NCBI GenBank assembly: GCA_900299215.1
Contig: OMIY01000179.1
Span: forward strand, 1-36,957
Direction of reading: 5' to 3'
Length of the DNA stretch: 36,957 nucleotides
From: a bacterium
GTDB lineage: Bacteria > Bdellovibrionota_B > Oligoflexia > Oligoflexales > CAIYRB01
Shown: positions 11,957 to 30,430 of the stretch, piece by piece
Position numbering within the stretch: the stretch's first letter is position 1
Layout: every line of letters begins with the position of its first letter
Translations under genes and position numbers: made by a program
The notes under the pieces: model-generated
The model's input: only the letters and a program-made list of their open reading frames with translations
Database searches by the model: none
Told to the model about the DNA's origin: nothing

Positions 11957-14938
11957 ATGTCATTTTCTGGAGAAGAACTAGACGAGTTTAAAGCGGAATC
12001 GCTTGAGCTTCTCGAAAATGCCGAGAAACAGCTCCTTTCCATCGACAAAGGTGGGGACTTCCGCGCAGCCTTCGACGCCACCTTCCGATGCTTCCATAAT
12101 CTCAAGGGAGCCGCCGGGATGATGGACCTAGAGAAGTTACAGGTCCACACCCACAAACTCGAAGAGCTACTGATGGGCTTTAAAGAGGCCACCAGTATGC
12201 CTAAACCTTACGTCACACTGTTTCTTCGTGGCATCGATGCTTCACGCATTCTTATTGATGGCGGCGACGTAACTTTTAATTATGACGTCGAATCAGAACC
12301 CGCTCCCCGTGAAAAGCCAAAGGCGCCTGAACTCTCTGCCGAGGCGATTGACGAGTTCCTATCTGAGTGCGAGGAAATCGTCGAACGCGTATCAGCAAAC
12401 CTTCAGACAATCGAAGGTGGCAACGAGATCAAACCGCGCACTGACGACATATACCGTGACATCCATTCCATGAAAGGATCTGCCTACCTTTATGGTTACA
12501 AGAAGCTGGGCGACCTAACCCACGCCATGGAGTCCAGTCTTGAAAAAATTCGCCAGGAAACCCACCTCCCCTCGAAGGAACTGCTGAACGCGCTGTTTCG
12601 CAGTCTAGAAATCATCGATCAATATGTCACACTAGTGCGATCAAAAACCGACCGAAGCACACTCGACCTATTGATTCCGAACCTAGAAAACGTGCTTAAC
12701 CTCTGCGCTGCCAACCTCCCAATGAATTTTAGTGAAGCTGCAAAGCCCACTTCAATAGATGAACCCGTAAGCGTCCCAGTCAGCAAGGAACCTCCGCAGG
12801 CGGTGCTTGGCAAAGAAAGCGAGGGGGCCACCTCGATTCGAGTCCCAATTTCGCTGCTCGACAACCTCATGACCCTTATGGGCGAGATGGTACTAGTCCG
12901 TAACCAAGTCATCCAGTTTTCCAACAAGTCGGATGACCTTGAGTTTGTCAGCATGAGCAAGCGGCTCAATGTCGTTACCAGTGAAATTCACGAAGAGATG
13001 ATGAAGACCAGGATGCAGCCTATCGGCAACGTCCTAACCAAGTTTAACCGTGTGGTCAGAGATCTATCGCAGGATCTAGGTAAACAGATCAATCTTCACC
13101 TTCATGGAACCGAAACTGAACTCGACAAATCACTACTCGAGGCTATCAAAGACCCACTAACGCATATCGTCCGCAATTCCTGCGATCATGGCATTGAAAC
13201 TCCTGATGTCAGGCGCAAGGCGGGGAAGTCTGACGTTGGCAACCTCACCATCAAATCCTATCACGAGGGCGGACAAGTCATTATTGAAGTTCAAGACGAT
13301 GGAAAGGGCCTACATCGCGAAGTCATCTTGCAAAAGGCTCTTGAGAAAGGGCTTATCACGCAGGCAGAGGTTGGCTCCTATAGTGAGAAGCAGGTCTTCA
13401 ACCTCATCTTCGAAGCAGGATTCTCAACAGCTGCCAAAATCACCAACGTATCTGGCAGAGGCGTCGGGATGGACGTCGTCCGCACCAATATCGAACGAAT
13501 CGGTGGGACGGTCGAGCTTGCTAGCATTCCAGGTGCGGGAACCAAGACTAAAATCAAAATCCCACTCACTCTGGCCATTATCCCGGCCTTGATAGTCAGC
13601 AGTGGCAATGGCACCTACGCCATTCCTCAAGTGCGACTTGAAGAACTCGTCCGCGTTGAGCAGTCTTCAACCACAAGCCGTGTCGAGATCGTTCATGGAG
13701 TACCGGTGTTTCGCTTACGGGGAAACATTCTCCCGTTAGTCGATCTCAATTCCGTATTGACACGGGAAAACCGCAACGACTATCGCGATGGCACATTAAA
13801 TATCGCAGTTCTAAACGCTGATCAGTTTTCGTTCGGCCTGATCATTGACCGAATTCAAGACACCGCCGACATCGTCGTCAAACCTCTCAATCGCCTGATT
13901 AAGTCACTACAGATATATTCAGGAGCTACAGTTTTAGGTGACGGTGCCGTCGCCCTAATCCTTGACATCCCAGGTATCGCTAAAGTCGCAAGACTGGAAA
14001 CAGCCGCTGCTCGGGCCATTGAAACCTCGGAAGATCTGGCAGAAAAAGCCAAAGCTTCCTCCGAAGTTCAAGACTACCTCATAGTTCGACTAAACTCCCC
14101 GACCAAACACGGTATCGTCCTCGGTTTTGTACACCGCCTTGAGGAGTTCAAGAGAAGTGAAATCGAGTATTCCGGACGCTTGCCGGTGGTAAGGTATCGC
14201 GATGTCATTCTGCCTCTAATCTCCGCCAATGAGCATCTCGGTTATCCCGAAGGCACGAAATCATCACAGTTTGTATCCGTGGTCGTAATCAAAAAGAAAG
14301 AAGCACTCTACGGACTAATCGTTGATGAAATCATGGATACGCTTTCTACCTCTGCAGATCTAGATTCGAAAATTAACGCCCAAAATGGCATCTTCGGATG
14401 TTTGAATACCCCAAACGAGCTGATAGTTATTATCGATCCATTTGATATTATCGAGCGTCAGTACCCTAACTCCAAACAACAGGAACTGTACCCAGCACCT
14501 TCTCTTGCTGCGGATTCTGGGGCTCAGGCCGTCGACGGGAAGTTCCCAAAAATTCCGGCGACGATCCTCTTGGCTGAAGACACCGCCTTCTTCCGCAAAG
14601 CAATCAAAGCAGTACTAGAAAAAACCGGTTACCGCGTGGTGTGCGCGAATGATGGGCAGGAGGCCATGGACCTTTTAGCTGATCCAAAAAACACCTTTGA
14701 TCTCGTGGTATCGGATATTGAAATGCCCCGTTTAAACGGGTTTCAGTTGGCTGAAGCGATACGAAAGCACCATGCTCACTCAAAACTCCCAATGCTTGCC
14801 GTTAGCTCGCGCGCTGACATCCATTCGATGGAGGCAGGACTTAAAGCCGGATACGACCGCTATCTCGAAAAACTCAAGCCCAACATACTTTTGAGCGCCG
14901 TGTCGGAGCTCATCCTAAAAGCGAGGAAAGCCGCATGA
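11957..14938 (+). CDS. cheA: Hybrid chemotaxis histidine kinase CheA with receiver
   Basis: Core kinase of the chemosensory array. Domain order: Hpt 1 (His47 in HNLKGAAG), Hpt 2 (His170 in HSMKGSAY), dimerisation helices from about 293, HATPase about 365-535 (N-box HIVRNSCDHGIE from 403, then DDGKG and GRGVGMDVV), CheW-like domain 1 about 538-680, a divergent CheW-like domain 2 about 705-845, and a C-terminal receiver from about 865 with Asp920 in SDIEMP. No recognisable P2 domain lies between the Hpt and dimerisation segments. At 993 residues it is far longer than the 650-residue E. coli CheA. Two phosphotransfer domains plus a receiver suggest an internal phosphate sink or a branched relay. 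AGAGGAGG precedes the ATG. It overlaps cheW by four bases (ATGA). Confidence 0.97.
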   Translation: MSFSGEELDEFKAESLELLENAEKQLLSIDKGGDFRAAFDATFRCFHNLKGAAGMMDLEKLQVHTHKLEELLMGFKEATSMPKPYVTLFLRGIDASRILIDGGDVTFNYDVESEPAPREKPKAPELSAEAIDEFLSECEEIVERVSANLQTIEGGNEIKPRTDDIYRDIHSMKGSAYLYGYKKLGDLTHAMESSLEKIRQETHLPSKELLNALFRSLEIIDQYVTLVRSKTDRSTLDLLIPNLENVLNLCAANLPMNFSEAAKPTSIDEPVSVPVSKEPPQAVLGKESEGATSIRVPISLLDNLMTLMGEMVLVRNQVIQFSNKSDDLEFVSMSKRLNVVTSEIHEEMMKTRMQPIGNVLTKFNRVVRDLSQDLGKQINLHLHGTETELDKSLLEAIKDPLTHIVRNSCDHGIETPDVRRKAGKSDVGNLTIKSYHEGGQVIIEVQDDGKGLHREVILQKALEKGLITQAEVGSYSEKQVFNLIFEAGFSTAAKITNVSGRGVGMDVVRTNIERIGGTVELASIPGAGTKTKIKIPLTLAIIPALIVSSGNGTYAIPQVRLEELVRVEQSSTTSRVEIVHGVPVFRLRGNILPLVDLNSVLTRENRNDYRDGTLNIAVLNADQFSFGLIIDRIQDTADIVVKPLNRLIKSLQIYSGATVLGDGAVALILDIPGIAKVARLETAAARAIETSEDLAEKAKASSEVQDYLIVRLNSPTKHGIVLGFVHRLEEFKRSEIEYSGRLPVVRYRDVILPLISANEHLGYPEGTKSSQFVSVVVIKKKEALYGLIVDEIMDTLSTSADLDSKINAQNGIFGCLNTPNELIVIIDPFDIIERQYPNSKQQELYPAPSLAADSGAQAVDGKFPKIPATILLAEDTAFFRKAIKAVLEKTGYRVVCANDGQEAMDLLADPKNTFDLVVSDIEMPRLNGFQLAEAIRKHHAHSKLPMLAVSSRADIHSMEAGLKAGYDRYLEKLKPNILLSAVSELILKARKAA

Positions 14939-15426
14939 GCGTCACTGCCGTCGACTACGTAAGAAGGCGTCCAGTCGAGCAACTCACAACCTTTCTTATT
15001 GACGGTCACCTCTTTGGCATCGATGTGCTTAAAATCGAAGAGGTCACAGGCAAGCAAAAAGTTTACGAAGTACCGAGATCGCCAAACTTTATTCGTGGCC
15101 TGGTTAACTTGCGCGGGCAAATAGTTACAGCTTTGGGACTGCGGGAGCTTTTTCAAAAGGATTCGAGCCGACGCGACGACCAAATGTCCGTTGTCTGCAA
15201 ACTTGATGGAAATCTGGTTGCATTGGTTGTCGACTCTATAGGCGATGTAGTCGAAATCGAACGTTCTTTATTTGAATCACCTCCGGACACAATCCCCTCC
15301 GAGGTTCGACGCTTTATCAAGGGGATTTACAAGATGAACGGTCAACTCATGAGTGTGATTGACCTTGGTGCGATAGAGAAGGAGTTTTCCCCCAACACCG
15401 ATCCCGCAACGACAAGAATCAATTAA
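14935..15426 (+). CDS. cheW: Chemotaxis coupling protein CheW
   Basis: Adaptor that links receptor tips to CheA in the cytoplasmic array. A single CheW/SH3-like domain fills the 163 residues: QLTTFLIDGHLFGIDVLKIE, then FIRGLVNLRGQIVTALGL, the usual receptor-docking strand region, and VDSIGDVVEIE. GAGGA lies within the end of cheA about eight bases before the ATG, and the start overlaps the cheA stop as ATGA, so the two proteins are translationally coupled and probably made in fixed ratio. No extra domain is present. Confidence 0.96.
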   Translation: MSVTAVDYVRRRPVEQLTTFLIDGHLFGIDVLKIEEVTGKQKVYEVPRSPNFIRGLVNLRGQIVTALGLRELFQKDSSRRDDQMSVVCKLDGNLVALVVDSIGDVVEIERSLFESPPDTIPSEVRRFIKGIYKMNGQLMSVIDLGAIEKEFSPNTDPATTRIN

Positions 15427-15447
15427 ACAATAGCCCAGGAGTCAATC

Positions 15448-17403
15448 ATGAGCGCACTTAAGAATGCTGAGAATCTAGTCTACGGAATGAACAAAGTCAT
15501 GGGTCGACCAGAGACCGATGATCCTGCTGCGATGCTTCAAGCCGTTAATCGTTCTCAGGCTGTTGCTGAATTCAGTATGGATGGGCTGCTTTTGAACGCA
15601 AACGACAACTATCTAAAGCTTACTGGTTATGAATTAAGTGAAGTCAAAGGCCGGACTCACAGCATGTTCTGCGACGCTAATTATTCACAGAGCGATAAAT
15701 ACAAAGTCTTTTGGGAAAGACTGCGCCATGGCGAATTTGAATCCGGCGAATATAAACGCATAGGCAAAGGTGGGCGCGAGATATGGGTTGCAGAGTCTTA
15801 CAATCCAGTCATGGACGCTAGCGGTAAGCCGTGCAAAGTTATCACCTTCGCTACCAACATCACTGAGACGCGCCAGGAGCTACAGGTAAGAACTGCCATC
15901 ATGAATGTCACTAGCATCGTCTCTGAGGCCAACCTCAAGGGCGACATCATGAGCATTAATGAAAAGTTCATTGAAGTATCAAAATATAGTCGCGAAGAGC
16001 TCATCGGCAAGCCACACAATACGACCCGTCACCCCGATATGCCCAAAGAAGTATTCAAGGAGATGTGGGCAACTATCGCTCGTGGCAAGATGTTCCGCGG
16101 CATAATCAAAAATAGGGCCAAGGACGGCACCCCCTATTATGTTGATGCCGTCATCGCTCCCATTCTAAGCGAGCGTGGCAGACCAAAGAAATACTTAGGT
16201 GTGCGCTACGACATCACTGCCATGGAAACCGAACGCCAAAACATGCGCGGCGTGATCAGAGCTATCGATGCTTCGTATGCATACATAGAATTTGATACGT
16301 CGGGAAATGTCACTATGTGTAACAAGAATTTCACCGAGACCATGGGCTATAGCCAAGAAGAGGTCACCGGTAAGCATCATCGACTGTTCTGCGAATCCAC
16401 TTATGCAAACAGCCTCGAGTACAGCCAGTTCTGGCCAGATCTAAAAGCAGGCCGCACCAAGAGCGGCATCTTTAAACGCGTCACCAAGATGGGTCGTGAA
16501 GTTTGGTTACAGGCTGTATACGCCCCAGTCACCGACGAAGTCGGACGCGTAGTTAAAGTCCTTAAGATCGCAACTGACGTTACCGAACAACAAAACATGA
16601 TCACGTCCATTCAAGAAACTTCTGCGACTCTCGCAAGTGCTGCAGCTGAGCTTACCGCAACAGCTACAGAGATGGCAAAAATTGCTGGGCGCACCAGTCA
16701 CGAATCCGAGTCGGCTGCAGCGGCCTCGGAGCAGGTATCCGCAGGAGTTCAGACTGTTGCTACCAATGTCGAAGAGATGGTTGCCTCGATTAAAGAAATT
16801 GGCAGATCCACTCACGAATCAGCGCAAATGGCAAAGCAGACCACTGCGAAAGTCCAAGAATCGAATGCCATCATCACTAAGCTTGGTGCGAGCAGTCAAG
16901 AAATTGGCGCTGTTATTAAAGTGATCAGTTCGATTGCTCAGCAGACCAATCTGCTCGCTCTAAACGCCACAATCGAAGCAGCGCGCGCCGGCGAGGCTGG
17001 CAAGGGCTTTGCGGTAGTTGCCAACGAGGTTAAAGAGCTGGCAAAACAAACAGCCAAAGCCACTGATGATATCACTAACAAGATTGGTGCAATACAAACC
17101 GACACCAAGTCAGCAGTTGACGCTATCTCGGGCATTTCCCAAGCAGTCGAGAAGCTAAACGGCCTGTCCGGCGTGGTTGCCACAGCAATTGAGGAGCAAA
17201 CAGCGACTACCAATGAGATTTCCCGCGTCGTTGTTGAGTCGAAAAAAGGTGTCGAAAGTATAGCTCGGACCCTTAAAACTGTTTCCACTGCTGCAAATGA
17301 GAGCACCTCTAGTTCCAATCAGACTTTGACGGCATCTCGCGGACTAGCCCAATTATCTGAGAAACTATCGCAGCTCGTCAAAAAGACGCAAAAAACGGTT
17401 TAA
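15448..17403 (+). CDS. Soluble chemoreceptor with three PAS domains
   Basis: A 651-residue methyl-accepting protein without signal peptide or membrane helix. PAS1 (about 30-140) and PAS3 (about 275-390) share a pattern, H-x-x-F-C (Cys75 and Cys315), FW, KR and GRE(I/V)W, like BdlA-type PAS domains, so they look duplicated. PAS2 (about 150-270) is different and close to the flavin-binding PAS of Aer: [13 protein letters not shown] with Arg194, His195 and Asp197, then [14 protein letters not shown]. The signalling domain carries the CheA/CheW contact tip [20 protein letters not shown] near 494-515 and Ala/Glu-rich adaptation helices. There is no C-terminal NWETF-type CheR tether. CAGGAG precedes the ATG. 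Inferred role: energy or redox sensing inside the cell. Confidence 0.93.
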
Positions 17404-17411
17404 CTAGACTC

Positions 17412-18506
17412 ATGCAAAAGCTCAAAGTCCTCATCGTCGACGACTCCGCCGTGTACCGCACTCAGATCAGTGCGGCACTCGAGGACGTCGACTGGCTTGA
17501 AACCATTGGCACTGCCGCTAATGGCCGCATAGCCTTAGAGAGGATCGAGCAGTTTAAGCCTGATTTTGTCATTTTAGACCTGGAAATGCCGGAGTTGGAT
17601 GGCATTGGAACGCTGCGCGAACTTAAACAGCGTCGGCTGCGTTGCAAGACCCTGGTTTTTTCATCGTTATCTAAAAAAGGCAGCGAAATCACTCTACAGG
17701 CTTTGTCGCTTGGGGCAACCGATTTTGTCGCCAAACCTGACAGCAACTCTTCCCATAGTGACACGCCAGCTGAGAGAATAAGGGCTCTGCTCCTTCCAAA
17801 ATTGGAGGCATTGAGACCGAGCACCGTGATTCATGTTGATAGTCGTCGCTCTAGTGCTACAACGAAGAGATCTGGTGTCATCTGGGACATATTCAAACCT
17901 CGGGTCGTCGTCATTGGCTCCTCTACCGGCGGACCCACGGTTCTTGAAAAAATTGCCGGCCTGCTCAAGCCGCCATTTTCTGTCCCTATTGTCATTACTC
18001 AGCACATGCCACCAGTATTCACAGCAACATTTGCTGAACGACTTGGCTCCATCGCCAAGGTCTCGGCTGTGGAAGCAAAAGACCAAATGCCCCTCGAGTC
18101 TAACAAGATTTATGTGGCTCCCGGCGACTTCCACTTGCGTATTACTGGGACAGCTGAAGATCCAGTGCTTACCTTAGATCAAGGCCCCAAGGTCAATTCC
18201 GTGAGACCAGCAGTTGATCCCCTCTTTGAGTCTGCCGCAGCAGTCTACGGTGAGCGATGTCTAGCTATCGTGCTAACTGGCATGGGCGCCGACGGCCGGA
18301 CTGGAGCCCAAGTGGTCAAAAATCACCGCGGAGCCGTCATGATCCAGAGCGAAGACTCTTGCGTAGTATTTGGTATGCCTGGTGCTGTTTTTGCCACAGG
18401 TAACTATGATTTGATCGGAGATCCAGAACAAATAGCTCTGTGGATGAACGAAAAGATAAGCTTACAGTTTCCACATTTTTCTACCCATGGAGGTAGGCGT
18501 GTTTGA
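17412..18506 (+). CDS. cheB: Chemotaxis methylesterase/deamidase CheB
   Basis: Removes receptor methyl groups during adaptation, activated by phosphorylation from CheA. The N-terminal receiver has Asp56 in ILDLEMP. The esterase domain carries the full triad: Ser171 in GSSTGGP, His198 in TQHMP and Asp294 in LTGMGADG, in register with E. coli Ser164/His190/Asp286. Length 364 is normal. It starts eight bases after the receptor stop and I see no good Shine-Dalgarno, so translation may depend on coupling to the receptor gene. It overlaps cheY by eight bases. Confidence 0.96.
   Translation: MQKLKVLIVDDSAVYRTQISAALEDVDWLETIGTAANGRIALERIEQFKPDFVILDLEMPELDGIGTLRELKQRRLRCKTLVFSSLSKKGSEITLQALSLGATDFVAKPDSNSSHSDTPAERIRALLLPKLEALRPSTVIHVDSRRSSATTKRSGVIWDIFKPRVVVIGSSTGGPTVLEKIAGLLKPPFSVPIVITQHMPPVFTATFAERLGSIAKVSAVEAKDQMPLESNKIYVAPGDFHLRITGTAEDPVLTLDQGPKVNSVRPAVDPLFESAAAVYGERCLAIVLTGMGADGRTGAQVVKNHRGAVMIQSEDSCVVFGMPGAVFATGNYDLIGDPEQIALWMNEKISLQFPHFSTHGGRRV
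18489..18494 (+). promoter_or_regulatory. Ribosome binding site that decides the cheY start
   Basis: GGAGGT lies five bases before a GTG at 18499. An in-frame ATG at 18487 is longer by four codons but would put this site inside the gene and has no site of its own, so the GTG is preferred. Confidence 0.65.
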
Positions 18507-18882
18507 AATTTTAATTATCGACGACACAAGATCGGTGCATGCATTTCTGCGCTCCGTGCTTTCGCCATTCACTGACTTATCACTCACCAGTGTTGCTAAT
18601 GGATCTGAAGGTCTGGTCACATTGCAGAGTGGCAAGCAATACGACTTAATTTTACTTGATTGGGAAATGCCAGTGATGGACGGTCCAACGACCTTCACCG
18701 CGCTGAGAGCAACTGGGTGCCAAACTCCAGTGGTAATGATGACGACCAAAAACGAACCTGATGATATCGCCCGCATGCTGCGCGCTGGAGTGAATGAGTA
18801 CATGATGAAGCCTTTTACCTTAGACATACTGCTCGAAAAAATCGAGTTTGCCACTGGAAAGGTGATTCGCCTTGCTTCTTGA
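18499..18882 (+). CDS. cheY: Single-domain response regulator CheY
   Basis: Receiver-only protein of 127 residues expected to carry phosphate from CheA to the flagellar switch or another output. It has the acidic pair in LIIDDT, phospho-acceptor Asp54 in LLDWEMP, the conserved Thr in MMTTKN and Lys104 in MMKPF. The Trp after the acceptor Asp is shared with other CheY-like proteins. With the GTG start the N-terminus (MFEILIIDD) has the usual length. It overlaps cheB upstream and cheR downstream (11 bases), in keeping with the tightly packed operon. An epsin or flagellar target cannot be told from sequence. Confidence 0.94.
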   Translation: MFEILIIDDTRSVHAFLRSVLSPFTDLSLTSVANGSEGLVTLQSGKQYDLILLDWEMPVMDGPTTFTALRATGCQTPVVMMTTKNEPDDIARMLRAGVNEYMMKPFTLDILLEKIEFATGKVIRLAS

Positions 18883-19741
18883 GCGAATATTACAATTTTT
18901 CGCTAAAGAGATCGAAGCCGAGTTAGGCATCGTCTACTCAGAGAGCAATTACTTTCAGCTACAAAATCGCCTTGAAGAGATTGCCAAACAAGTAGGTGCG
19001 AACGATATTTATGCCCTCTACGAAAGTGCCAAAGGTGGGCTCACCGGCCCGTTGAAGCAGTTACTTCTAGACATAGCAACTAACAATGAGACCTCATTTT
19101 TTCGCGACCCAAAAATCTACAAATCGATAGAGACTCTATTATTTGGTCAAGATACCAGCCCTCTCCAACCCTATGAAACTCTGCGTATTTGGTCCGCTGC
19201 GTGTTCGACTGGGCAAGAGCCATTGTCCCTGGCCATGATGCTGACAGAGAGAAGTGAAAAGACCAAGGCTGCACTCTCCTTTAACATACTTGCGACCGAT
19301 ATTTCTGAGCGCGTCCTCAACAAGGCCAAAACAGGAGTCTACACACAACTTGAGGTGCAAAGAGGGTTACCTGCCCCAATGATGCTTAAATATTTTACTA
19401 AGGATGATCAAGACCGTTGGACTGCCAGTATGGAGCTGCGGCGACACATCGAATACGGGAAATTGAATTTGCGAGATAAATTCGGATTTAATGGCCTCTT
19501 TCATACCATATTATGCCGTAATGTACTGATATACCAAAGTGTCGAAGGTAAACGAGACATCCTCACGCGCATCACCGAGGCGCTTTGCCCGGGTGGCTAC
19601 CTAATCCTAGGCGCTGGTGAGAGCTTAATCGGACTTTCTAATGACTTTGAACACAAAACCGTTGACGGTGTGATCATCTACCGAAAGAAGATACAGCAAC
19701 AGACCCCAGAGAATTTTGAGAAGTTGGAGAAGTTGGCATGA
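18872..19741 (+). CDS. cheR: Chemotaxis protein methyltransferase CheR
   Basis: S-adenosylmethionine-dependent glutamate methyltransferase that adapts the receptors. It shows the N-terminal helical domain, the block NNETSFFRD, the SAM-binding segment WSAACSTGQEPLSLAM and FHTILCRNVLIY, followed by GGYLILGAGESL. Length 289 is close to E. coli CheR. The only start that keeps the whole N-terminal domain is a TTG overlapping the cheY stop, with AAGGTG about ten bases upstream. No TPR extension is present. It overlaps the following lipoprotein gene by four bases. The receptor in this operon lacks a pentapeptide tether, so binding must be direct. Confidence 0.95.
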   Translation: MLLERILQFFAKEIEAELGIVYSESNYFQLQNRLEEIAKQVGANDIYALYESAKGGLTGPLKQLLLDIATNNETSFFRDPKIYKSIETLLFGQDTSPLQPYETLRIWSAACSTGQEPLSLAMMLTERSEKTKAALSFNILATDISERVLNKAKTGVYTQLEVQRGLPAPMMLKYFTKDDQDRWTASMELRRHIEYGKLNLRDKFGFNGLFHTILCRNVLIYQSVEGKRDILTRITEALCPGGYLILGAGESLIGLSNDFEHKTVDGVIIYRKKIQQQTPENFEKLEKLA

Positions 19742-24494: not shown

Positions 24495-24521
24495 TTAAGT
24501 TAGACCCCTGTGAACCGATAG
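24495..24521 (+). promoter_or_regulatory. Sigma-28 (FliA-type) promoter of the receptor/flagellin-like operon
   Basis: TTAAGTTA (24495-24502), an exact 11-base spacer and ACCGATAG (24514-24521) match 12 of 16 positions of the flagellar consensus TAAAGTTT-N11-GCCGATAA. It is correctly placed about 37 bases before the receptor start, and the downstream genes are exactly those such a promoter would drive. Confidence 0.72.
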
Positions 24522-24558
24522 GCCTTCTGAGGAGCACTCTAGCTAGGGAGAAATCCGC

Positions 24559-26244
24559 ATGCAGGAAGGCCAAAGTCAAAGAGACGATACCCAAGTGGTC
24601 TCAACCGCCGCCTTAACTGGTACCGGGGCCTTGATGGCCATGTTGGCAGTGGGGTCGTTGGCCGTTTTAACTGACCTTGCACACTATGACTGGATGGGGT
24701 TCGGGCGCTCTGGCGAACTAAAGCTTGTTGCTGAGCACTTAACTGCCCTCCCAAATAACTTTGCCATCGCCACTTCAGAGTCTATTCGCGCGACGATCGA
24801 TGAAATGCTCACCTACCTCAGTTCAACGGTAGTTGTTCCCAGGCTGATGGTACAGATCTTACTTCTTATCAACGGCCTGATCTTGGTGGCTGCTATTGCC
24901 TCGCAGATTTTGATCTGGCGATTACGTCGACCCACCAAAGCTGGGAGGAGCAAAAGAATTGCAGGTGCCACTTCCACCACCGCGTACGGATCTCCCAGAG
25001 CTAGAGATAATCCCGCGGTCGATGATTTTCGTCTCGTCGACCCAAGCCTTGATGAGAACTACAGCGCTGAAACTGGAGTAAGCCCGGCACTTTGCGATGC
25101 TGCCGGCGTGCTACTTGAAGCTAATAGACGGCTATCAAGCGTCCGCCAGCAGTGCCAGGATTATGCCACCCAAACTGCTTCAGCACGCGGCGAATGGTAC
25201 GCCATAGGCACCCAGCTTTGGCATATAAGGCAACTTCAGGATCGTAGCTCCGACACCGTAAGAGGATTACGCAAAGCAACTTCGGCGATGATGCTTTCCT
25301 TCAAAGATACACTGAAGCTGGAAGCTGCTTTAGCTGGACGCATCGATGTGGTGTCAATGCACGTGCGCGATCTCAATGACAGATTAAGTTCCACTGAAGA
25401 GCTTATTAAGACAACAGACCAAGCGCTCTCACATTGCCGCACTGAGGTTAAGTCCGCCTCGACGCTCGTTTGCAATCTTGCCGATCGAGCCGGCGAAATA
25501 GTGGCTGCGATTGGAATTATTGACGATATCGCCGAACAAACTAATCTGCTCGCACTTAATGCCTCGCTCGAAGCAGCTCGTGCGGGCACTGAAGGACAAG
25601 GGTTTAGCGTAGTCGCCGACGAAGTTAAAAAATTGGCGACACGGGCAAACGCGGCAGCAAGAACGATCACCGCTCTGCTCATAGCTATAAAAACTGGAGC
25701 TAGCGAAGCCTCAGGGCGCCTTTCAAACGGTCAGCTCACAGTTGGTGAAGTAGCCAGTTCGTTACAAAAGATCTCTATGTCGCATGACACAAGTTCGAGC
25801 ATAGTCAACCGCGCGCTTGATGACATAGGGGTCATCGAGCACGAGTTGGAATATTTAGTTGATGCACTTGCGAACACGCAAAAAGAGTGTGTGACGATCA
25901 ACACAAACACCGAAACTTTATCAAAAACACAACAAGTCTGTTCCGAGACTGGCGCCAAGATCGGCAGTGAGATCCGCCATGCAGCTGCGAGCTTGGATCG
26001 CATTTCACGGGTATTATCAAGTCAATACCACTCTTTGTCACACTGCGAGCACTTGATAGATGGCGCTGCAACTTTAAGCAAAAGTGCGGCACCAAAGCCG
26101 ACAACTCTCACAGCTCTTGGCGATAACCTGAAATCACAAGATCCTGAATTCCTAACCAAACACCCGCTACATATAGTTAGGCAAGAGCCGCAGCTACATT
26201 TGGATAAGCTGAGTCCGAAGCTCGCAATAAGTCACGAGGTTTAA
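24559..26244 (+). CDS. Transmembrane methyl-accepting chemotaxis protein
   Basis: A 561-residue receptor with two membrane helices (about 17-39 and 93-117) enclosing a periplasmic part of only some 50-55 residues, too short for a standard four-helix or Cache ligand domain. No clear HAMP domain follows; instead there is a low-complexity charged stretch to about 180. The signalling domain contains the tip sequence [20 protein letters not shown] near 324-343 and [13 protein letters not shown]. Its tail ([20 protein letters not shown]) is not a CheR tether. GGGAG precedes the ATG. The gene sits behind a sigma-28 promoter and ends one base before a flagellin-like gene, so it probably belongs to the motility regulon. 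Confidence 0.9.
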
Positions 26245-26245
26245 T

Positions 26246-27181
26246 TTGTCGTTCAACATTAAAGATCGGTCTTTAGAACTTCGCCTGGAGCGTCATCTTA
26301 GCGACGCCCAGCGCGACGTCTCCGATGCCTTCGAGCGCCTTAGCTCGGGAACGATCTTTACGTCGAACGAGCCAAAACCTTCGGAAAGAGCGCTAGCTGA
26401 GGGTCTTGAATTCAAACTTCGCGGATTATCTGCTGCAAAGCGTAATGTAAATACAGCAATTAATTTAATTCAAACCGGCGAGGCGAGCCTATCCGAGGTC
26501 AGCAATATCATTCAGCGCCTAAAAGAAATCAATATTTCTGCTGCAAGCACCACTTTAAGCGATCGTGACAGGGCCTTCCTATTCGTTGAATACCAAGCTC
26601 TGCACGATGAAATAAATCGCATTGCAGAAACTACAGAATTCAACGGTATTCCACTGCTCAATGGTGCTTCCGAGAAAGTACCTGAAAGACTAGTGCTACG
26701 CGTTGGCGATCCGAGCAGGTCTGGCAGCCAGGGAGAAAATGGCACAGATCTGAACGTTATCGAGTTTAATGAATTAAAGAGTATCGTTGCCACCACGGAT
26801 GGGCTTGGTTTACGGTCAGCCGCCGATTTACTTGGTGGAGTTGATGAATATGGCGTGAGTCTGGATGATGCTCAGGAACTCCTAGAACCAGTGGACAGTG
26901 ATAACTTTTCCACCGTTTATGACGAAGCCCTGAGCCACCTTGCGAGTCACCGCGCCCTGTTTGGATCGATACAAACTCGATTAAACCGGGCCATCGATTT
27001 TATTGATGTATATCAGGAAAATATCGCTGCAGCCAAATCATCCATCGCCGATGTCGACTACGCTGAACAAGCCGCGTCTCTAACAGAGTCGCGCATAAGA
27101 CTCCAGGCCAGCACTGCAGTACTTGCTCAGAGCAATATCAACTCAGCACAGGCTTTAAATTTACTGAATACACTGCGCTGA
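26246..27181 (+). CDS. Divergent flagellin-like protein
   Basis: A 311-residue protein with the two terminal helical regions of flagellin. The N-terminal D0/D1 region has AFERLSSG, then GLSAAKRNVNTAINLIQTGE and RIAETTEFNGIPLLNG, but the usual N-x-A-A-D-D-A-A-G-L-A motif is replaced by TSNEPKPSERALAEG. The C-terminal region SSIADVDYAEQAASLTESRI, ending TAVLAQSNINSAQALNLLNTLR, is close to the filament-assembly helix, with three extra residues beyond the usual LLR end. The middle domain is short. Start is TTG, with GAGG six bases upstream, one base after the receptor stop. It could be a minor filament subunit, a filament cap-proximal variant or a non-motility homologue. FlgL is less likely given the C-terminus. 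Confidence 0.85.
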   Translation: MSFNIKDRSLELRLERHLSDAQRDVSDAFERLSSGTIFTSNEPKPSERALAEGLEFKLRGLSAAKRNVNTAINLIQTGEASLSEVSNIIQRLKEINISAASTTLSDRDRAFLFVEYQALHDEINRIAETTEFNGIPLLNGASEKVPERLVLRVGDPSRSGSQGENGTDLNVIEFNELKSIVATTDGLGLRSAADLLGGVDEYGVSLDDAQELLEPVDSDNFSTVYDEALSHLASHRALFGSIQTRLNRAIDFIDVYQENIAAAKSSIADVDYAEQAASLTESRIRLQASTAVLAQSNINSAQALNLLNTLR

Positions 27182-27193
27182 AGAAGGCACAAA

Positions 27194-27628
27194 TTAAGGG
27201 CCTGAGACCACTGGAAGCCTTGCCTTTTCCCAGGCAATCATACCTCCGCCAATATCACTGATCTGGGCGAATCCTAGTTCAGACATTATGACAGTTGCTT
27301 TGGCACTGCGGCTACCAGATCGGCAGTAAACCAGATAATGCTTCGACTTATCAAGTTTAGCCAACTGATCTTTGAAATCCTTCGCGTAAAAATCTAGCTG
27401 TTTAGCATCCTTGATATGATCTTCAGCAAATTCCTCTGCAGTACGCACGTCCAAAACGACCAAGGACTTTGACTTACTATTTGAGTCAATGAGCTGCGAT
27501 GCTTCCTGAACCGTAATCTGCTTGACGGTGACAGCAAAAAGTTCCGCAGAATCGATGAGTATAGTCATACTTACTGCGACTAGCGTAAAAACCATGGCCA
27601 CCAAAGAAACGAATTTTGATTTTTTCAT
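27194..27628 (-). CDS. Exported single-domain rhodanese-like protein
   Basis: A 144-residue protein with an N-terminal hydrophobic signal or anchor (FVSLVAMVFTLVAVSMTILI) followed by one rhodanese domain. The active-site loop reads YCRSGSRSA with Cys102, and the entry motif VVLDVRTAEEF and the C-terminal GGMIAWEKARLPV are typical. Single-domain rhodaneses carry persulphide sulphur; a periplasmic location suggests a role in thiol or sulphur handling. I chose the ATG at 27628 because GGAGG lies nine bases upstream; upstream in-frame starts have none. It follows the App1-like phosphatase gene by 31 bases. Confidence 0.9.
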   Translation of the reverse strand: MKKSKFVSLVAMVFTLVAVSMTILIDSAELFAVTVKQITVQEASQLIDSNSKSKSLVVLDVRTAEEFAEDHIKDAKQLDFYAKDFKDQLAKLDKSKHYLVYCRSGSRSAKATVIMSELGFAQISDIGGGMIAWEKARLPVVSGP

Positions 27629-27659
27629 GGTCAATACCTCCATCGCCACTTTCAACCAC

Positions 27660-28766
27660 CTAACGCTCGGCAGTCAACGCCTTTTGCCACTTTTTAGCAC
27701 CCTGAATGATCGCTGCTTCGGTCTGCATTGCAACACGCTCAAAGTCACATTTTAGACTACGTGCAAAAGTCTCAGCCAACGCCGGCCCCACGGCCTCGTC
27801 AGCATGGAGACGTCCTAGCGCCGCAGTAGCTGCAATTCCGAGCTCGGACTCGGCGCCGACGCGCTCCACTAAAGCCGTTAACATGACTATGATTTGCGAT
27901 TGGGTCATCCCATGGAGGTTGTGAAAATGTCGCGTCAATTGCCAAAGATTTTCAACCTGCAGCACACCGATCTGCATAAGTAGTAGCGCTGCTTGGTAAA
28001 AGTTATCAAACTGCTGAACGATCCCGCTCAAAGGATCCGACTCGGGCAAGGTGTAACCTGGGACGTTTCTAATCAGCACGGCAACGACTTTGGCCCCATT
28101 TCTGAGCGGCAAGCCATCCGCTAAATCCGCTGCAACGTCATGCTCAACACCTGCGTGTTCCAAGTACAAGCGGTAGCCAGTGGGGCTCAGCAGACCGTCC
28201 GCCAGCAGCTTAATTCCGGAGTAAATATAAGCATCTTGTTCAGCATTGTCGCCGATGAGTACAAATCGCGCATTAGGTCCGGCAGCTGCTAGCAAATTAA
28301 GTATGGCTAAAGATTTGTAGGCAACATGCTGACGCAGCAAATCCATCCGACCCATGCGCAGATTGTAAGCTTGGTCTTTAAATGTGTCAGAACTCCAATC
28401 AAGCCCATCCAGCATCATTTTTTCTGCTAATACTGATCGCAGCTGCGGGGGTGAAGATGAGACGAAGTGCAGACAGCGAGGAAATTCGCTCGTGGCCGGC
28501 AGTGGCACGTCGAGTTGACCCCAGCGAGCCAGCTGCAAAACCTCTGAGGCACCGCTTACCGTGACTTTATCCGTGGCATCCTCGAAAGCAATGCGGGCCA
28601 TCCGAATCACACTTTCGAATTCGGTCTCAAGGTAGGTCTTATCGATGTCACAGACTATGTGAACACCTGCCTTGTTGCACGGCTCAAGTTGGCGGGAGTC
28701 TACCAACTTCGCTAACTTGTAGCTCTGCTGCCGTGGTCTTGTAAAATTACGCCAAAAGCTGACCAT
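27660..28766 (-). CDS. App1-like phosphatidate phosphatase (DUF2183, HAD fold)
   Basis: A 368-residue protein with the HAD phosphatase motifs of the App1/DUF2183 family: motif I DIDKT with Asp40 and Asp42, the Ser motif FVSSSPPQL, a Lys in YKSLAIL, and the acidic motif GDNAEQDAYIY. Relatives hydrolyse phosphatidate or similar lipid phosphates. No signal peptide is seen, although the basic N-terminus could touch membranes. The C-terminal 120 residues are helical and not recognised. GGAGG lies nine bases before the ATG. It is followed closely by the rhodanese gene and preceded by nadB with a 62-base gap that holds only a short palindrome GACCTGAGGTC. Confidence 0.83.
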   Translation of the reverse strand: MVSFWRNFTRPRQQSYKLAKLVDSRQLEPCNKAGVHIVCDIDKTYLETEFESVIRMARIAFEDATDKVTVSGASEVLQLARWGQLDVPLPATSEFPRCLHFVSSSPPQLRSVLAEKMMLDGLDWSSDTFKDQAYNLRMGRMDLLRQHVAYKSLAILNLLAAAGPNARFVLIGDNAEQDAYIYSGIKLLADGLLSPTGYRLYLEHAGVEHDVAADLADGLPLRNGAKVVAVLIRNVPGYTLPESDPLSGIVQQFDNFYQAALLLMQIGVLQVENLWQLTRHFHNLHGMTQSQIIVMLTALVERVGAESELGIAATAALGRLHADEAVGPALAETFARSLKCDFERVAMQTEAAIIQGAKKWQKALTAER

Positions 28767-28828
28767 GTTAACCCCTCCCCTCTATGATGACCTGAGGTCG
28801 CGTAACTAGGAAGGGCAAAATATCTAAA

Positions 28829-30430
28829 TCAGCGAATGACTGTTTCTTTACGCCACTCCACGTCCCGGGGATGAGGATAATCGATATTAAAGTGAATCCC
28901 TCGCGATTCCTTGCGGGCAATCGCGCAGCGGATCGTCAAAGCCGCTACCAAGGCCAAGTTCCGCACTTCCAGTAGCGAATCCGTCACGCGGTAGTCCCAG
29001 TAATAGGTATCCAGCTCCTCGCGTAACGCATTGATGCGGCTAAGAGCTCTTTTGAGTCGCTTGTCGCTACGGACAATGCCGACGTAATGCCACATCAAGC
29101 GCCTGATTTCGTCCCAAACGTGCGACAGCACCACTAACTCATCAGCCGGGGCGGTTCCCTGAGGATGCCATGCCGGAACATGGACCTGGGTGATTTCGCT
29201 CGCAGTCGGATCATGAACCTGCCCCAACACGTCTTCCGCTACCCGATCAGCGAATACCAAGGCTTCGAGTAAGCTGTTGGAGGCCAACCGGTTGGCCCCA
29301 TGTAGGCCGGTACAAGCTGTCTCACCAAGTGCATAGAGTCCAGAAACTCCTGTACGCCCGTAGCCATCGGTAACCAGCCCTCCACAACTGTAATGAGCCG
29401 CAGGCACAACCGGAATCATGTCGTGCACCATGTCGATGCCGAATTTTTTACAGGTGGCATGGATGGTTGGAAAGTGTTTCAAAATAAACGCCTCGCCAAG
29501 ATGACGAACGTCCAGAAACACATTTGTCTCGCCTGTTTGTTTGAGTTCACTATCAATCGCACGCGCCACGATGTCGCGCGGAGCTAGCTCGGCCAAGGGG
29601 TGATAGTCGCGCATGAATTCAACGCCGCGACGATTTTTGAGTTTGCCACCCTCACCTCTCACAGCCTCAGAAATGAGGAAGTTCTTTGCCTGTGGATGAT
29701 AAAGGCAAGTGGGGTGAAACTGCATGAACTCTAAATTTGCCACCCGGCATCCCGCCCGCCACCCCATGGCTAAACCATCGCCTGTGGCTGCATCTGGGTT
29801 TGAGGTGTAGAGGTAGACTTTGCCATGGCCTCCCGTACACAGAAAGGTGTTGCGACTGCGGAGCGTCGAAATCTCCTGATTGTTGCGATCGAGTACGTAG
29901 GCCCCCAAGCAGCGATTTTCGGCAAAATCCGGCGCATATTTGTCGGTCGTCAGGAGGTCTACCGCCATCGTATTCTCAAGGATAGTGATGTTGGGCTCAG
30001 CTTTGGCCCTATCTATCATTGTGGCGAGGACACCTTTGCCCGTGGAGTCGTCGACATGAATCACGCGACGATGTGAATGTCCCCCCTCCTGGGTCAGATG
30101 GTAATGACCAGCAGCTGCATCTTCGGCCGAAAATGGCACCCCCCAGCGGATCAGCTCCTTTATCAATCTTGGGCCCGAAGTAACCACCAATTCGACTACA
30201 TCGCGGCGGCAAAGTCCTGCCCCAGCCACAAGTGTGTCTTCTATGTGCCGCTCGAAGGAATCGGCCTCGTCGAGAACACTGGCGATGCCTCCCTGCGCCC
30301 ACCAAGTGTTGCTGTCAGTCAGGCCACCCTTGGCGATCACGGTGACGCGCTGTTGCTTGGCCAGCTTGAGAGCCAGAGTCAAACCGGCTATACCGGACCC
30401 TATAATCAGATTTTCCGTGTAGCGTTCCAC
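28829..30430 (-). CDS. nadB: L-aspartate oxidase NadB
   Basis: Flavoenzyme that oxidises L-aspartate to iminoaspartate, the first step of de novo NAD synthesis. The FAD-binding N-terminus reads LIIGSGIAGLTLALKLA, the substrate region has QEGGHSHRRVIHVDD, close to the E. coli sequence, and TGGHGKVYLYTSNPDAATGD, LASNSLLEALVF and a C-terminal helical domain follow. Length 533 compares with 540 in E. coli. Start is GTG with AGAGGTGG about ten bases upstream. Neither nadA nor nadC is adjacent here. The succinate dehydrogenase flavoprotein is the main look-alike, but the EGGHSHRR segment and the length favour NadB. Confidence 0.95.
   Translation of the reverse strand: MERYTENLIIGSGIAGLTLALKLAKQQRVTVIAKGGLTDSNTWWAQGGIASVLDEADSFERHIEDTLVAGAGLCRRDVVELVVTSGPRLIKELIRWGVPFSAEDAAAGHYHLTQEGGHSHRRVIHVDDSTGKGVLATMIDRAKAEPNITILENTMAVDLLTTDKYAPDFAENRCLGAYVLDRNNQEISTLRSRNTFLCTGGHGKVYLYTSNPDAATGDGLAMGWRAGCRVANLEFMQFHPTCLYHPQAKNFLISEAVRGEGGKLKNRRGVEFMRDYHPLAELAPRDIVARAIDSELKQTGETNVFLDVRHLGEAFILKHFPTIHATCKKFGIDMVHDMIPVVPAAHYSCGGLVTDGYGRTGVSGLYALGETACTGLHGANRLASNSLLEALVFADRVAEDVLGQVHDPTASEITQVHVPAWHPQGTAPADELVVLSHVWDEIRRLMWHYVGIVRSDKRLKRALSRINALREELDTYYWDYRVTDSLLEVRNLALVAALTIRCAIARKESRGIHFNIDYPHPRDVEWRKETVIR

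Follow-up and report, generated by a model that had tools for sequence, protein, structure and literature searches.

In the 36,957-nt stretch of DNA analysed here, which we refer to as the window, a chemoreceptor gene is followed after a gap of one base by the gene of a flagellin homologue whose spoke has been rewritten, and this arrangement recurs across the class Oligoflexia. The pairing of the distinctive flagellin with a receptor is real and old, and it is apparently undescribed. A sequence-only reading of the window had proposed a sigma-28-type operon joining a receptor to a non-standard flagellin; this proposal was partly supported, the coupling being kept across the whole class. It was considered most likely that the two genes are paired because their products are made together at a late stage of flagellum assembly, and not because a filament talks to a sensor.

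A divergent flagellin with an altered spoke

The flagellin-like gene occupies positions 26246 to 27181 of the forward strand, encodes 311 amino acids and begins at a TTG codon, with a putative ribosome-binding site (GAGG, 26236 to 26239, forward strand) located 6 nt before it, within the end of the receptor gene. Its product was found to match PF00669 and PF00700, with the Flagellin_N region, the N-terminal D0/D1 part, at 26273 to 26668 (E 3e-26; 92.5 bits against a cut-off of 26.6) and the Flagellin_C region, the C-terminal D1/D0 part, at 26918 to 27166 (E 5e-17; 62.3 bits against a cut-off of 23), both on the forward strand. The AlphaFold2 (AF2) model reached a pLDDT of 79.4, and its best PDB matches in Foldseek were flagellar filament subunits, with E values down to 6.6e-15 and TM scores of 0.63-0.71 by query length.

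It was noted that DDAAG is absent from the protein and that NEPKPSER stands in its place. The altered stretch, IFTSNEPKPSER, comprises residues 37-48 (26354 to 26389, forward strand) and replaces RIN..DDAAGL. The sequence-only reading had described a replaced central D1 motif; the motif is indeed replaced, but the site is the spoke linking D0 to D1, through which adjacent subunits are packed. This spoke keeps the inner tube of the filament joined to the outer one (PMC5578693). Because of that role, few flagellin residues are as conserved as those of the spoke. D43, D44 and G47 were invariant in the 45 ordinary flagellins sampled and are lost in the clade to which the window protein belongs, so that on sequence comparison we file the protein as a divergent flagellin homologue and not as an ordinary flagellin. 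The clade has lost 13 positions whose conservation among ordinary flagellins is 88% or more, and 7 of these fall within residues 37-48. The change from RIN..DDAAGL to [VI]FT..xPxPx[ED]R is near-invariant in the clade except in one very divergent member (genome G047). Elsewhere the conserved packing positions of D0 and D1 remain, as does the C-terminal helix. A longer C-terminus had also been proposed for the protein, but the extension is slight, as its LLNTLR ending exceeds the LLR and similar endings of the ordinary paralogues by a few residues and its length of 311 aa compares with 281-308 aa among the complete ordinary paralogues.

Relationship to ordinary flagellins and distribution of the clade

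The genome containing the window is a 3.9-Mb draft in 459 contigs. At least four further flagellin genes were found in it, on contigs C419, C335 (two) and C394, together with two flagellin fragments (C122 and C192) and an FlgL gene beside FlgK on C300. The flagellin-like protein shares 36-38% identity with the ordinary flagellins encoded in the same genome, in contrast to the Bdellovibrio flagellins, which are >55% identical to FliC2 (PMC2791853). In a tree of 109 sequences, the window protein was placed in a clade of 40 with a support of 100/100 and a stem of 0.9; this clade lies inside the flagellins and apart from FlgL, which falls outside at 100/100. A profile of the clade gave 364-486 bits for full-length members and at most 240 bits for ordinary flagellins. 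That the protein might simply be the ordinary major flagellin of the species, an alternative raised in the earlier reading, is most unlikely given at least four ordinary flagellins, a separate FlgL and a separate clade.

Named matches placed the group in Oligoflexia, among Oligoflexales metagenome-assembled genomes and in Fluviispira multicolorata (Silvanigrellales). Members scoring >280 bits, which we read as orthologues, were found in 43 of 58 genomes with one copy per genome. Two more genomes (G046 and G047) contained a very divergent member at 227 bits, that of G047 being recognised by its position behind the same receptor. The clade was thereby present in approximately 45 of the 50 Oligoflexia genomes with flagellin matches, and most of the five genomes lacking it are incomplete drafts. 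Among eight relatives without flagellins, neither a clade member nor a strong FliG match was found; the presence of a clade member follows flagella. Sampling beyond the class covered 22 genomes, located via loci from unclassified and other Bdellovibrionota-type bacteria; these contained only ordinary flagellins, with no match >210 bits.

The partner receptor

The upstream gene (24559 to 26244, forward strand) encodes a methyl-accepting chemotaxis protein (MCP) of 561 amino acids and is preceded by a putative ribosome-binding site (AGGGAGA, 24545 to 24551, forward strand). Its signalling domain (25411 to 25914, forward strand; PF00015, E 1.7e-29, 103.3 bits against a cut-off of 34.6) contains the canonical hairpin tip motif, and two hydrophobic segments are separated by a loop of ~58 aa. 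The AF2 model (mean pLDDT 73.7, with hairpin blocks mostly >85) consists of TM1 at aa 16-43, TM2 at aa 95-123, a disordered linker at aa 124-169 occupying the place expected for a HAMP domain, and a long helical signalling hairpin at aa 170-510 with arms at 170-341 and 347-510. HAMP domains are common in MCPs and not universal. None was detected at E 0.01 in the 27 partner MCPs scanned, and the window's receptor is without one.

The window's receptor is similar to other MCPs in its signalling hairpin, its tip motif and, as among Oligoflexales partners, its two TM segments. It differs in having no HAMP domain, a loop of about 58 aa and a disordered linker, and the Silvanigrellales partners differ in having no TM segment. 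A two-TM receptor with a short periplasmic loop and no HAMP had been described in the sequence-only reading and was recovered here, but a loop of the length called "unusually short" is normal for this family of receptors, measuring 48-66 aa in all Oligoflexales partners with MCP domains except one. Because there is no HAMP domain and the short loop is near-constant, the receptor does not resemble small-molecule sensors that have a large domain in the periplasm. We found three MCP genes in total in the genome, two of them within the window, and a moderately supported split (79/61) set the partner MCPs apart from the remaining MCPs of the class. It was also noted that a chemotaxis operon is located at 11957-19741 of the window, encoding CheA with a receiver domain, CheW, a PAS-MCP, CheB, a CheY-like receiver and CheR.

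Conservation of the pair and its exceptions

A search for receptor/flagellin-like pairs elsewhere, as the earlier reading had suggested, recovered the pair in 33 of 41 loci from two orders, with the MCP gene immediately upstream and on the same strand. The intergenic gap had a median of 3 bp and ranged from -62 to 40, with most values between -1 and 26. The remaining neighbours were wholly different between the two orders, including APP1-type phosphatase and NadB-like genes in Oligoflexales and MshEN-domain, aminotransferase and other genes in Silvanigrellales, and the pair alone was common to both. Through a model built from the partner MCPs, no MCP was detected beside the ordinary flagellins in approximately 74 loci.

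Several of the surrounding genes were recurrent. In the window, the pair is followed on the opposite strand by genes for a rhodanese, an APP1-type phosphatase and a NadB-like flavoprotein (27194-30430), of which the latter two are neighbours of the pair in many Oligoflexales. A gene directly upstream of the MCP gene was encountered in nine Silvanigrellales loci (L109, L110, L111 and L113-L118), and its copy in L114 has an MshEN domain (PF05157, E 3e-10). The MshEN fold binds cyclic di-GMP in other proteins.

The exceptions concerned mainly the receptor. Ten Silvanigrellales loci encode a partner MCP devoid of TM segments, and in six Oligoflexales genomes another protein stood in place of the MCP, the flagellin being kept. 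Three of these replacements, all from one genus (L091, 3227-4975; L092; L096), carry a two-TM coiled-coil protein in the MCP's place, and the remaining three, from another family (L097, L105 and L107), carry a lipoprotein-like protein with a dermatopontin domain (PF14704). The label of "degenerate MCP" was considered for the coiled-coil protein and dropped, as no homology to MCPs was detectable (hhalign probability 0.8%). Its gene was itself observed behind an M23-peptidase-domain gene. One locus (L090) is solo, having no partner, and another (L088) begins where its contig does. In L080 and L081, which are sister species within the genus of the window, the receptor tip was changed to INLVALNSSIQSARAGDQGQGESFAAFATEV with a two-residue insertion, which we read as a tip that is decaying. 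The overall identity of the partner MCP was also low, at 16-25% to most partners. The no-TM partners of Silvanigrellales, the replacements, the solo locus and the tip decay together indicate that the flagellin is the constant part of the pair and the receptor the changeable part.

A sigma-28-type promoter-like box

Upstream of the receptor gene, a sigma-28-type promoter-like box was located at 24495 to 24521 of the forward strand, with TTAAGTTA as the -35 element (24495-24502), N11, and ACCGATAG as the -10 element (24514-24521). As had been claimed from the sequence, TTAAGTTA-N11-ACCGATAG matches 12 of 16 bases of the consensus TAAAGTTT-N11-GCCGATAA with the perfect 11-nt spacing, but the score alone is not significant. 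Eight matches of at least 12/16, one of them 13/16, were found on both strands of the window, and the score of the box in its own upstream region gave p = 0.03. A 12/16 box of this kind is weak evidence when alone, and position and conservation would carry the case.

We scanned 33 pair loci for a similar box and found that 15 reached p<0.05 individually, compared to under two expected; the combined value (p = 5e-10) is overstated, since the relatives are not independent. A CCGAT-type -10 at a similar distance was common to many pair loci, and the box recurred at the equivalent place in many Oligoflexales relatives. Some of the loci with a replacement partner had it as well, upstream of that partner (L091, L096 and L107). 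Among the Silvanigrellales loci tested, no outstanding box was found before the MCP or MshEN gene, the box not being evident in most, and of the four ordinary flagellin genes in the window's genome, three (L012, L013 and L014) had no sigma-28-like box in the same simple scan. Because the box was not seen at these places, the assignment to a regulon is not secure. The control of the three box-less flagellin genes may differ from that of the pair. A FliA-type sigma factor was identified in the window's genome (286.7 bits), and a FliA-like factor was also found in a non-flagellated relative (G008). Sigma-70 promoters in the region showed no excess over shuffles, and no terminator was found there.

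Interpretation of the pairing

The explanation that we prefer, at somewhat better than an even chance, is that the pair forms a late flagellar (sigma-28/FliA class) operon of Oligoflexia that encodes a specialised minor filament subunit and an array receptor. With the hook finished, FliA would be freed and the operon read. The flagellin-like protein would then leave the cell via the flagellar channel and be incorporated into one particular section of the filament, for which the hook-proximal end is the most plausible candidate. This placing is by analogy with FliC3 of Bdellovibrio bacteriovorus, which is present in a small amount at the proximal filament end (PMC2791853), and with FlaA of Shewanella putrefaciens, the hook-proximal flagellin in a segmented filament (PMC6299084). 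The altered spoke may suit the protein to a junction, or it may stiffen the stretch that the protein forms. The receptor would join the CheA/CheW array, and as both products would be made at the same moment, sensing would appear together with the filament; receptor and flagellin-like protein need not touch. Counting against this explanation are the lack of a box at three ordinary flagellin genes and in the Silvanigrellales loci tested, a class-wide adjacency stronger than plain co-regulation usually needs, the FliA-like factor of the non-flagellated relative, and the solo locus.

The window protein is similar to the minor flagellins FliC3 and FlaA in being one of several flagellins per genome and in sharing the D0/D1 fold, and by the same analogy a small positional contribution to the filament is also probable here. 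It differs from them in its conserved PxPxER, which stands for DDAAG, and in the location of its gene behind a chemoreceptor. As in sigma-28 (FliA) late operons, flagellin and receptor genes lie behind a TAAAGTTT-N11-GCCGATAA-like box; here, however, the order is obligate-looking, with an MCP and then one specialised flagellin across the class. Filaments of several flagellins, sigma-28 operons and MCPs without HAMP are all known already. No earlier description of a pair of an MCP and a spoke-variant flagellin was found in the literature searched, which lay mostly outside subscription journals, and within this literature a class-wide, single-copy spoke-variant flagellin behind an MCP appears undescribed. 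With its spoke rewritten throughout a class, one copy beside ordinary flagellins and a tie to a chemoreceptor, the protein offers a clean natural test of the role of the spoke and of why bacteria keep several flagellins, as well as a marker for Oligoflexia flagella. It also raises the question of why production of a receptor is coupled to that of one specific filament subunit.

There is a small but real chance that the adjacency is neutral, with two late flagellar genes sharing a promoter by chance and the flagellin being a redundant extra copy. Sigma-28 regulons commonly include both flagellins and receptors, and the partner swaps show that the first gene is dispensable. However, a redundant copy would be expected neither to persist as a single copy with an almost invariant derived spoke over the class nor to keep one gene order in 33 of the 41 loci.

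It is unlikely that the flagellin-like protein remains outside the filament altogether, being exported or retained as a ligand, a surface adhesin or a regulator. The loss of spoke positions found invariant among ordinary flagellins would agree with such a role, as would the existence of flagellin homologues with other proposed roles, of which we take PDB 3k8v, a "flagellin homolog", to be an example. Against it, the class as a whole has preserved the C-terminal helix and the packing positions of D0 and D1, filament subunits are the best structural matches, and the protein is present where flagella are.

We regard it as quite unlikely that the receptor monitors the flagellin-like protein, such as its export, assembly or filament load, and signals this to CheA. 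Adjacency kept across two orders in otherwise unrelated neighbourhoods speaks for such a link, as do the missing HAMP domain and the near-constant short loop of nearly all Oligoflexales partners. However, ten Silvanigrellales partners are without a TM segment, so that contact in the periplasm cannot be general. The flagellin is kept where a coiled-coil or dermatopontin-domain protein has replaced the receptor, the MCP tip of L080 and L081 is decaying, and the overall identity among partners is low. The filament-associated signalling role hinted at in the sequence-only reading was therefore left unsupported by the no-TM partners, the six Oligoflexales replacements and the decaying tip in sister species. 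A more elaborate version, which we hold to be decidedly improbable, treats the clade as a dedicated filament-status module in which a partner coiled-coil receptor would report, within the cell, the export or assembly of the changed-spoke flagellin, and the MshEN protein of Silvanigrellales would add a tie to cyclic di-GMP; chemotaxis output would then follow the state of the filament.

Finally, it is highly implausible that the protein is a hook-associated, FlgL-like junction protein and not a flagellin: it is similar to FlgL (HAP3) as a predicted export substrate of the flagellin superfamily whose spoke holds prolines, like the DDP of FlgL, but this identity was rejected and is largely refuted by the sequence tree, in which the clade groups with flagellins and outside the FlgL clade at 100/100, and a separate FlgL is present beside FlgK, while the TIGR02550 score of 68.8 bits is below the cut-off of 127.2, NCBIfam cut-offs being uninformative here as ordinary flagellins also fall below them.
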